From Dehalococcoidia bacterium (lineage in GTDB: Bacteria > Chloroflexota > Dehalococcoidia > Lucifugimonadales > Lucifugimonadaceae), in the NCBI GenBank assembly GCA_002728715.1, contig PBVQ01000014.1, positions 22,058-86,057 of the forward strand: a DNA stretch of 64,000 nt, written 5' to 3'. Shown here in pieces: positions 3,055 to 29,024 of the stretch. The translations under genes were made by a program, and so were the position numbers. Position 1 is the first letter of the stretch; every line of letters begins with the position of its first letter. Under the pieces are notes generated by a model that was given only the letters and a program-made list of their open reading frames with translations, searched no databases and was not told where the DNA came from.

Positions 3055-3969
3055 CTAAATATTAATAATCTTCTTTGGTTTTAATTCTAAATGTTTTTTT
3101 GAAAATGTTAATAATCCTATCATTTGATTTTCTTCAGAATAAGCAATAATATTTTCATTATCATCAAAAAACGATGATTGATTCATATTTAATGAAATTG
3201 ATTGCCCTGTGCGAATCTTACTCTCTTCTAAAAGATCACAATTAAATTTTTTTAGATGTTTTACAGTATAGTCGACAGGCATAATATAATTCTTAATATC
3301 GCCATTCCTAATTGATTCATCTATATCATCAATTTTTATAGAATTTCTTAAGTCAAAGACTCCAGACCTTGTTCTTTCCAAATTAACTAAGTGAGCTAGA
3401 GATCCTAATTTTTCTCCTAAATCATTAGCAAAGCTTCTTACATAAAATCCATGTGAACAATCAATTCTTAATGATAAAAATGGAAGGCTATAGTTTACAA
3501 GTTCTATTTTATAAATCTTGATTTCTCGAATCTTTCTCTTCACAGTTTTTCCCTGCCTAGCTAACTTGTATAAAGGGACACCATTATGTTTTAGGGCAGA
3601 GTACATAGGTGGCATTTGAGATTTTATGTTTTTAAAATCAAATAGAGTATCTTGAATATTTTTTTTTGTTATAAATGAATAATCTTTTTGATTAGTGACC
3701 TTGCCATGAGAATCATATGTATCCGTTGATTCTCCAAGTTTTATTGAGGCTAGGTATGACTTACTTCCGTGTAATATATATTCGGAAAATCTTGTTGCTG
3801 AATTCAAACAAATCGGAAGAACCCCAGTAGCTAGTGGATCTAAAGTTCCTCCATGTCCTATTTTCTTAACACTCAATAAACTCTTGAGTTTACGAACAAC
3901 ATCATTTGAAGTCCAATTAATAGATTTATTAATATTAATATAACCATTCATAGTCTTAATTGAATTCAA
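3055..3969 (-). CDS. truB: tRNA pseudouridine(55) synthase TruB
   Basis: GHGGTLDPLATGVLP active-site motif; next to rbfA. Confidence 0.96.
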   Translation of the reverse strand: MNSIKTMNGYININKSINWTSNDVVRKLKSLLSVKKIGHGGTLDPLATGVLPICLNSATRFSEYILHGSKSYLASIKLGESTDTYDSHGKVTNQKDYSFITKKNIQDTLFDFKNIKSQMPPMYSALKHNGVPLYKLARQGKTVKRKIREIKIYKIELVNYSLPFLSLRIDCSHGFYVRSFANDLGEKLGSLAHLVNLERTRSGVFDLRNSIKIDDIDESIRNGDIKNYIMPVDYTVKHLKKFNCDLLEESKIRTGQSISLNMNQSSFFDDNENIIAYSEENQMIGLLTFSKKHLELKPKKIINI

Positions 3970-22139: not shown

Positions 22140-22397
22140 TTATTCTATTGAGTCGGCTAAAACTGTAACTTTATTATCTGAAACCTCAACAAAACCACCT
22201 GTAAGACTGTATTTCTTTGGTTCACCCTCAGCAGTAACTACAAGATTGCCTGAAAGTAAGGTAGACATAAAATCTGCGTGGGATGGCAAGATTGTAAACT
22301 CTCCCAACCCGCCTTTCGCGGTAACTTTATCAACTTGCCCCGAGAAAGCAATTCCTTCATTAGTAACTAGTTCTAAAAATAGTTTTGACATAAACAA
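22140..22397 (-). CDS. atpC: ATP synthase epsilon subunit, 85 aa, beta-sandwich domain only
   Basis: GEFTILPSHADFMSTLLSGNLVV, GGFVEVSDNKVTVLAD; end of atp operon. Confidence 0.92.
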   Translation of the reverse strand: MFMSKLFLELVTNEGIAFSGQVDKVTAKGGLGEFTILPSHADFMSTLLSGNLVVTAEGEPKKYSLTGGFVEVSDNKVTVLADSIE

Positions 22398-26815: not shown

Positions 26816-27310
26816 TTAATTTTCCTTCAAACTTGAATCTAGTACTTTATTAATTAGCTTTGAATGAGTTTTTTCATCAAGAGAACTTTCTACAATTTTC
26901 TCAGCAGCAGCTATCGCTATTCCTGAGAAGTTTTTCCTTATCTCTTCAATTGCAGCAGATTTCTCTCTTTCAATATCAACTTTTGCTTTCTCAATCAATA
27001 TTTCTGATTCATCTTTCGCTTTTTCCTCAAGCTGTATTTTAAGTTTAGCTGCAGCATCTCTTGCATCTGAAACAATTTTTTGCCCTTCAATACGAGCAGA
27101 TGCTATCTCTTTTTCTATTTTTTCAGCAGTGGATTCAGCATCTTTTTTTGCATTCTCCGCCGCATCAAGGCTATTCTTTATTTTTTCTGCCCTACTATCT
27201 AACATTCCAATTATTGGCTTATATGCTAATTTGTAAAGCAAAAAAAATAAAACCAAAAAACTTACTAACTGAGTTAAAAGTTGCTGATATGTTATTCCTA
27301 ATGCGTCCAT
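26816..27310 (-). CDS. atpF: ATP synthase b subunit
   Basis: One N-terminal TM then long charged coiled coil; operon position. Confidence 0.92.
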   Translation of the reverse strand: MDALGITYQQLLTQLVSFLVLFFLLYKLAYKPIIGMLDSRAEKIKNSLDAAENAKKDAESTAEKIEKEIASARIEGQKIVSDARDAAAKLKIQLEEKAKDESEILIEKAKVDIEREKSAAIEEIRKNFSGIAIAAAEKIVESSLDEKTHSKLINKVLDSSLKEN

Positions 27311-27406: not shown

Positions 27407-27652
<246 letters not shown>

Positions 27653-27665
27653 CTATTTTTCTAAA

Positions 27666-29024
27666 TCAGTGATCTTCTGCGTGGCCGTCGTCATGATCAC
27701 CGTGACTGGCGACAGCCATTACGCCAAATACTAGTGTGAGCATTGAAAATATAAATGCCTGGATAACACCCACAAATAACTCCAGACCCATAAAAGGAAT
27801 AATTCCAATTAATGGTAGCAAAAAAGCCATGGCTATAAGTAAAATTTCTCCCGCAAACATGTTACCAAATAGCCTAAACGTAAAACTAATAGTCCTTGTA
27901 AGCTCACCAAAAGCTTCAAGTATTCCTACAAATGTTGATATTGGACCTTTCTTAATTGGATTTATAATAAATTTACCACCATACCCTTTGACTCCTAGTC
28001 GTCTAAATCCCCATACTTGAACACTAATCATGGCTACTATTGCAATAGCTAAAGTCGTATTGATATCTGTACTAGCCCCTCTTAAGTATGGGACCAACAA
28101 TCCAACAGTTTTTGTACCTACTTTTTCACCTTCACCATTATAATCATATTCACTTTTTGAAATCTTATTTTTAATATTCTTTACATCACTTTTAGCAACT
28201 TGATAAGGTTCATAGGATAGATGATTTTTAAAATTTTCATAAGTTGTATCACCCTTTGAATCTTCACTTACATATACACCACTAGTAATAGCAGATATAT
28301 ATGCTTCTTCATACGAATGAATTTGTTCTAAATCATACCCTAAAATAGAGGATAATTTAGGTCTTTGCGCCTCCCCAAATCCTAATGGAACAACCTTACC
28401 TATGGGGCCATCATCAAACATTACAAAAGTATCATTTGCATGACTTTCTAAAACATGAAGTTTAGCTAAGGTCTTAATGACATCTTCACCAACATTATAA
28501 GAAGCATATTTATCACTTAATTCATCTTCATATTTATGATAATGATGGTGAACCCATTCATCTAAATCTTCTATTCTTCCTATTGATCCTACACCAGGCA
28601 TTATACCAACCCAGTTTGACATCATAACAACAAGAAAAATTGTTGTTACCAATGGCAAAAATAATCTACCTGAATGCTTTTTACCTCCTGCAACTCCATC
28701 TGCTGTATTTGAGAAAAACTCATATATCAATTCAAATAGAGACTGTAATCTTGTTGGAACTTCCGACATATTGCGCGTTGCTATCCAAGACAAGAATACA
28801 AGAATTATTCCAGCAAACCAAAACATAATAGAAGAATTGATTAACTTATAAGATCCTATACTTGTTACCTTCTCGGCTGGTATAGAAATAAATGGAATTG
28901 GACCTCCCAAAAAACCAAATCCTAAGGAGGCACCTAATGCACCACCCAATATTGAAAAAAATAAAAGAGAAATAGAAAAAAGTAAAAGTGCTAATATTTT
29001 TGGATTTTTAATTATAGATTTCAA
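27666..29024 (-). CDS. atpB: ATP synthase a subunit, 452 aa, with large internal insertion
   Basis: LVVMMSNWVGIMPGVGSIG, VPYLRGASTDINTTLAIA, LTRTISFTFRLFGNMFAGEILL; insertion roughly aa 148-308. Confidence 0.94.
   Translation of the reverse strand: MKSIIKNPKILALLLFSISLLFFSILGGALGASLGFGFLGGPIPFISIPAEKVTSIGSYKLINSSIMFWFAGIILVFLSWIATRNMSEVPTRLQSLFELIYEFFSNTADGVAGGKKHSGRLFLPLVTTIFLVVMMSNWVGIMPGVGSIGRIEDLDEWVHHHYHKYEDELSDKYASYNVGEDVIKTLAKLHVLESHANDTFVMFDDGPIGKVVPLGFGEAQRPKLSSILGYDLEQIHSYEEAYISAITSGVYVSEDSKGDTTYENFKNHLSYEPYQVAKSDVKNIKNKISKSEYDYNGEGEKVGTKTVGLLVPYLRGASTDINTTLAIAIVAMISVQVWGFRRLGVKGYGGKFIINPIKKGPISTFVGILEAFGELTRTISFTFRLFGNMFAGEILLIAMAFLLPLIGIIPFMGLELFVGVIQAFIFSMLTLVFGVMAVASHGDHDDGHAEDH

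Follow-up and report, generated by a model that had tools for sequence, protein, structure and literature searches.

An enlarged loop in ATP synthase subunit a across the Dehalococcoidia, strongly indicated to face outward

Subunit a of the F-type ATP synthase (AtpB) from a SAR202-type Dehalococcoidia bacterium carries, between its membrane helices aH3 and aH4, a loop of 176 residues that is predicted to contain a folded domain of its own, and expansions of the same loop are spread over the class. SAR202 and its relatives are deep-ocean bacteria with a wide distribution. The enlarged loop is a variant of a known protein that lacks a matching solved fold. We propose that an outward beta-hairpin between the two helices grew at its tip into a folded stator domain of about 150 residues, which would brace the contact between subunits a and b and roof or line the mouth of the proton channel; we give this reading a probability of about 0.5. 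Throughout, "the window" means the whole stretch of 64,000 nucleotides that was analysed; all coordinates below are window positions unless another locus is named, and every window feature described lies on the minus strand.

The gene, atpB (27666-29024), is an open frame that starts with TTG and encodes 452 aa. It matches PF00119, the Pfam family ATP-synt_A, with an E value of 4.5e-41 and a score of 141.5 bits against a curated cut-off of 33.9, and the match is split into two pieces (profile positions 2-80 and 77-215) that flank the insertion, with no stops. Helix aH3 (aa 123-143; 28596-28658), drawn from hydropathy and seen as a helix at 123-141 in the AlphaFold2 model, directly precedes the loop, and the start of aH4 (aa 321-345; 27990-28064), placed by hydropathy and the same model, comes after it. 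Residues R384, N388, E393, E415 and Q422 align with R210, N214, E219, H245 and Q252 of E. coli; the codon of Arg384, the equivalent of the essential Arg210, lies at 27873-27875, and arginine occupies this position in 177 of 177 aligned rows.

The surrounding operon, atpI-B-E-F-H-A-G-D-C, has an ordinary layout. It is headed by an atpI-like gene (PF09527; 29047-29289) and includes atpE (27407-27634), which encodes a c subunit of 75 aa and is the sole PF00137 match in the genome, as well as atpF (26816-27310), whose product, subunit b, has a short outward N-terminus without a matching expansion. The 1.35-Mb genome, known from a fragmented assembly of 33 contigs that is estimated to be 84% complete, holds one PF00119 gene and one PF00137 gene, and AtpB therefore belongs to the working enzyme, if any subunit a does; it is the genuine and only F-type subunit a of this bacterium. 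Read from its sequence, the c subunit lacks the sodium ligands of the Ilyobacter type, Gln32, Ser66 and Thr67: it reads GIG and FAEAIAIY at the places where Ilyobacter has GQG and IAESTGIY. The lack of these ligands leads us to expect a proton enzyme.

The epsilon subunit encoded in the same operon (22140-22397) comprises, in its 85 aa, only the N-terminal beta-sandwich, the C-terminal helical (inhibitory) domain being missing. Similarly short epsilon frames, of 84-97 aa, occur repeatedly within the genus of the window and in a few other relatives, mostly in genomes of 1.0-1.5 Mb, and the subunit has at least 141 aa in most of the window's family. Just upstream of the operon lies a gene with a bifunctional nuclease domain (PF02577; 29302-29760), and a gene of similar sequence stands upstream of the atp operon in a distant Dehalococcoidia family (L171, positions 3209-3730 there).

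Loop length was measured between two alignment anchors, Pro143, where aH3 ends, and Asp320, where aH4 begins, which places the expanded loop at aa 144-319 (28068-28595). An earlier, sequence-only reading of the window had described a hydrophilic insertion, in frame and between conserved helices, at aa 148-308; its coordinates (28101-28583) proved exact, and the open frame and the two-piece Pfam match bear out the description. The position that it had proposed, on the outer face by the proton-entry half-channel, also stands, namely as the aH3-aH4 loop, in agreement with the structure of the Bacillus PS3 enzyme (PMC6377231). In the alignment, the same loop has 23 residues in the Vibrio rows and 23 in E. 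coli as well; over the E. coli and Vibrio loops, the net insertion amounts to about 150 aa. The usual short outward loop of about 25 residues is thus not present in the AtpB of the window, a short aH3-aH4 loop being the usual state of the PF00119 family and no defining feature of it.

Across its 176 residues the loop holds 29 Asp or Glu, 18 Lys or Arg and 8 His (calculated pI 4.9), so that it is acidic overall, and its histidine cluster (HHHYHKYEDE) is confined to the start. Its characterisation as rich in His, Asp and Glu is consequently right for the acidic bias and for the 25 residues at the start, but not for the domain as a whole. Long runs of His, Asp and Ser (e.g., HSSDHSSDHGSDH) were observed in the loops of some relatives (L022-L027 and L211), where they mostly lie between both cysteines and are a possible metal-binding stretch.

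The long loop characterises the family to which the window belongs. A 98% identical AtpB occurs in an independent MAG (L003), and Ca. Lucifugimonas marina JH1073 (L007), a SAR202 strain in culture whose genome is complete, has a loop of 152 residues. The split match that marks the long loop was found in 33 of 36 family relatives, or in 34 genomes with the window itself, the remaining relatives being one genome with a gene fragment only and two without a match. All of the family genomes that have both gene parts (34/34) therefore possess the long loop, and none of the 34 has reverted to a short one. In the class as a whole, a split match appears in about a third of the sampled genomes with the gene. 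Loop lengths in the class run from 20 residues, via 44-100 and 110-184, to 240-253, and the expansion can be regarded as shown, or at least strongly indicated, to be graded. The survey of AtpB lengths that the sequence-only reading had recommended thus yielded an insertion common to a whole family and a class gradient of 20-253 residues on which the window is one point. The largest loops (240-253 residues) belong to one family (f45; L171-L178), in which AtpB reaches 505-517 aa and the operon is otherwise standard. Other Chloroflexota have loops of mostly 7-62 residues, and outside this phylum, where the comparison covered only a few Pseudomonadota and Parcubacteria rows, loops have 22-26.

To place these lengths on a phylogeny, we used a quick tree, built from the membrane core after removal of the loop, in which many forks are weakly supported. 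Long-loop lineages appear on it in several separate places, some of them nested among short-loop ones, as with L202 and L204, whose long loops sit among loops of 20-30 residues; the SAR202 branch groups together with its neighbours, and most loops in this group are long. Going by this tree of core sequences, the loop has likely expanded more than once within the class, the number of expansions being uncertain.

When the window was compared with three close relatives, dN/dS was 0.11-0.15 in the loop against 0.02-0.03 in the core, and amino-acid change in the loop was about 6-16 times that of the core. Judged by this divergence, the loop is under purifying selection and yet changes like an exposed surface. 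Because of this dN/dS and the presence of the insertion across the family, it is neither a product of chance nor an artefact. The source assembly is indeed fragmented, which would favour an error of assembly or gene calling, and the sequence-only reading had allowed for an artefact unique to this contig; however, the insertion occurs in many independent genomes across the family, including the 98% identical MAG and the complete genome of the cultured strain, and its frame is free of stops and under purifying selection. We therefore consider an artefact refuted, with a residual probability that is negligible. The fast change of the loop, together with a difference of 35 residues within one genus (141 in L106 versus 176 in the window), makes it less likely, in turn, that the domain as a whole has a precise function.

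Several lines of evidence strongly indicate, mostly from the sequences of relatives, that the loop faces outward (exoplasmic). Among 110 loops of at least 55 residues, 83 have no cysteine, 25 have two and 2 have four, so that the number is never odd, whereas the membrane core of those proteins has one cysteine in 29 cases (Fisher p ~1e-12 for parity in loop versus core, a figure that ignores relatedness). The pairs stand at differing places of the loop in different lineages, with about ten independent origins as judged by eye, and cysteine pairing therefore arose many times. Disulfides form outside the cytoplasm, and never-odd counts thus point to disulfides and, through them, to a loop outside the cell; since the loop of the window itself has no cysteines, this argument rests on the relatives. 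Furthermore, long loops are acidic, with a median pI of 4.7, and basic residues are found on the opposite face, in the segments that follow the first core helix and aH4, while hydropathy reveals no membrane-spanning hydrophobic stretch within the loop. A cytoplasmic placement of the insertion is contradicted by the even-cysteine pattern and by this distribution of charge. In the Bacillus PS3 structure, too, the aH3-aH4 loop is on the periplasmic side, where it adjoins the half-channel and contacts subunit b (PMC6377231). The word "periplasmic", as used in the sequence-only reading, is right in the sense of outward but loose as a term: SAR202 cells are monoderm (PMC10444878), so that "outside" here means the cell surface layer rather than a Gram-negative periplasm.

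Structure prediction was carried out with AlphaFold2 on shallow alignments of 31-40 rows. The model of the whole AtpB (40 rows) has a pLDDT of 76, with residues 150-250 mostly at 80-90, and that of the insertion alone (31 relatives) reaches a pLDDT of 85.3 and a pTM of 0.80. The latter is a compact alpha/beta domain in which a strand (147-153) is followed by two helices (154-172 and 180-194), a second strand (201-205), further helices and a long return strand (301-315); the insertion is accordingly modelled, and here predicted, as a single folded domain. Profile searches of the insertion alone, also suggested in the sequence-only reading, gave no match in Pfam, in NCBIfam or, at E values up to 1, among PDB sequences. 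A Foldseek search with the isolated domain returned best E values of 0.43 for the PDB and 0.2 for viral models, both of them insignificant, which suggests, as far as a predicted model can be matched, that the fold is not yet solved. In the 21 genomes searched, no copy of the domain was found outside AtpB; capture from another protein is hence unsupported, and the domain therefore probably grew in place.

A possible starting point for such growth can be recognised at the base of the domain. The first strand of what would be the ancestral hairpin (aa 147-153, SIGRIED; 28566-28586) and the return strand leading into aH4 (aa 301-315; 28080-28124) were both delimited on the AlphaFold2 model of the insertion. 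The first strand includes Glu152, nine residues past Pro143, which is invariant in 46 of 46 family rows; glutamate takes this position in 82 of the 110 long loops, in 18 of 46 mid-length loops and also in several short-loop relatives. His160 (codon at 28545-28547) is conserved in 96% of family loops, and Phe203, Gly149, Gly215, Gly308, Pro312 and Arg315 are invariant or nearly so in the family. Short-loop relatives from the Chloroflexota and Parcubacteria have what appears to be a plain hairpin (e.g., GTGSIGFWEQAHGKEIFVPFFR), the counterpart of which in the window reads GVGSIGRIE before the domain and KTVGLLVPYLR after it, and a hairpin motif GxIGxxE...VPxxR is common to short- and long-loop relatives. 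Given that short- and long-loop forms have the same two base strands, with the additional residues lying between them, the domain would most simply have arisen by growth at the tip of an existing hairpin.

These observations are the basis of the stator reading. The ancestral outward hairpin between aH3 and aH4 would adjoin both the proton-entry half-channel and subunit b, and growth at its tip would have produced a stationary domain of alpha/beta type, about 150 residues in size. This domain would brace, on the outer face, the contact between a and b and may roof or line the mouth of the proton-entry channel, and the conserved residues Glu152 and His160 would lie near the entrance, at the base of the domain; of the whole reading, the contact with subunit b, the roof and the role of these two residues are the parts that we infer. 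The insertion would then be neither a switch nor an enzyme, but an exaggeration of a structural role for which the shorter Bacillus PS3 loop has been proposed, namely that of anchoring b in the manner of mitochondrial subunit f (PMC6377231). An enlarged anchoring role would explain the weak sequence conservation of the domain together with its conserved base. We also considered a matching expansion in subunit b and rejected it, as the outward N-terminus of b is no longer in long-loop than in short-loop lineages and is ordinary in both.

Among known systems, subunit a of Bacillus PS3 (6N2Y series) likewise has an outward loop between hairpin helices, by the outer half-channel and in contact with subunit b. 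It does so, however, within a protein of 237 aa, whereas the loop of the window has a predicted independent fold and those of relatives extend to 253 residues. In mitochondria this loop is shorter than in bacteria, where it differs from species to species (PMC6377231). The best PDB match to the AtpB of the window, by sequence (~1e-86) and by fold, is subunit a of Chloroflexus aurantiacus (9ITJ-9ITX), a member of the same phylum, which shares with it the hairpin base GVGSIG...LVP(L/Y)xR and an N-terminal hydrophobic segment. The Chloroflexus loop has about 62 residues, less than half the length found in the window, and two cysteines, and it is not matched by the profile of the insertion domain. 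The Chloroflexus entries contain 2 a, 4 b, 2 delta and 10 c chains, which implies two stators on one ring. An analogous two-stator arrangement is unsupported for the window: the Chloroflexus delta subunit, with 157 aa, matches only in its C-terminal part, whereas that of the window is of the ordinary kind, a full-length and conventional OSCP.

The main rival to the stator reading, though in our estimate an unlikely one, is that the domain modulates proton entry. Acidic and bearing histidines, it would gather protons or bind a metal ion (zinc, for example) above the channel mouth, and would so tune the entry of protons from salty, slightly alkaline seawater when the proton-motive force is low. 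The low pI of the long loops, the invariant Glu152 and the nearly invariant His160 at the base are all compatible with such a role, as are the long His/Asp runs with a cysteine pair in L022-L027. Metal sites at proton channels are, moreover, known: subunit a of Pseudomonas aeruginosa has a zinc cap, in which species-specific acidic and His residues close the proton channel, and zinc has been proposed by the outer channel in Polytomella (PMC12796488). The Pseudomonas cap differs from the insertion in that it consists of a few residues at the cytoplasmic channel and not of a domain at the outer one; it is the C-terminal tail of the window AtpB, HGDHDDGHAEDH, that is expected on the cytoplasmic side, like the cap. 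What speaks against a modulator is that the His/Asp runs vary in place and number, that the conserved loop residues besides Glu152 and His160 are mostly Gly, Phe and Pro, which are typical of folding, and that the lineages with long loops include some from groundwater and other environments, as far as the titles of their records tell.

Two further readings are less likely. The domain could be a docking surface that binds an S-layer, a respiratory complex, a neighbouring ATP synthase or a second a subunit, which is improbable but would suit a fast-evolving surface with lineage-specific partners and might find a parallel in the two stators per ring of Chloroflexus aurantiacus, the closest solved enzyme; against this, the operon is without a partner gene, and the conventional delta subunit leaves a second stator unsupported. 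Marginally more doubtful in our view is near-neutral growth, by which a tolerant outer loop drifted longer and was kept only in so far as its fold spares the channel, with no function of its own. The continuous range of lengths, the repeated expansions, the weak sequence conservation and the absence of any change in a partner are what such drift would leave behind, and for the PS3 loop a part in core proton translocation has been judged improbable (PMC6377231). The purifying selection that acts on the loop, its predicted stable fold and its paired cysteines in relatives are nonetheless difficult to reconcile with drift, as are the absence of any return to a short loop within the family and the retention of the loop in small genomes of 1.0-1.5 Mb, from which dispensable sequence is usually lost. 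On balance we continue to favour the stator reading over these alternatives.

In the open-access literature that we searched, no paper describing the expanded loop was found. Few machines of life are as conserved as ATP synthase, and the subunit that forms its proton path is generally considered to tolerate little change; here, a whole bacterial class, among whose members is an abundant dark-ocean lineage that has recently been brought into culture, has enlarged one of the loops of that subunit, at the proton entrance, to up to ten times the usual length. Nature has in this way provided an experiment on the extent to which the outer half-channel puts up with additional structure or makes use of it, and strains in culture exist. 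A broader and decidedly tentative idea, which we think unlikely, is that Dehalococcoidia, the deep-ocean SAR202 bacteria among them, have repeatedly built new, folded outer stator domains of 80-250 residues that roof the proton entry and control the access of protons, ions or partners. If true, these roofing domains would be a regulatory or adaptive layer of the F-type ATP synthase that is unseen in any solved enzyme.
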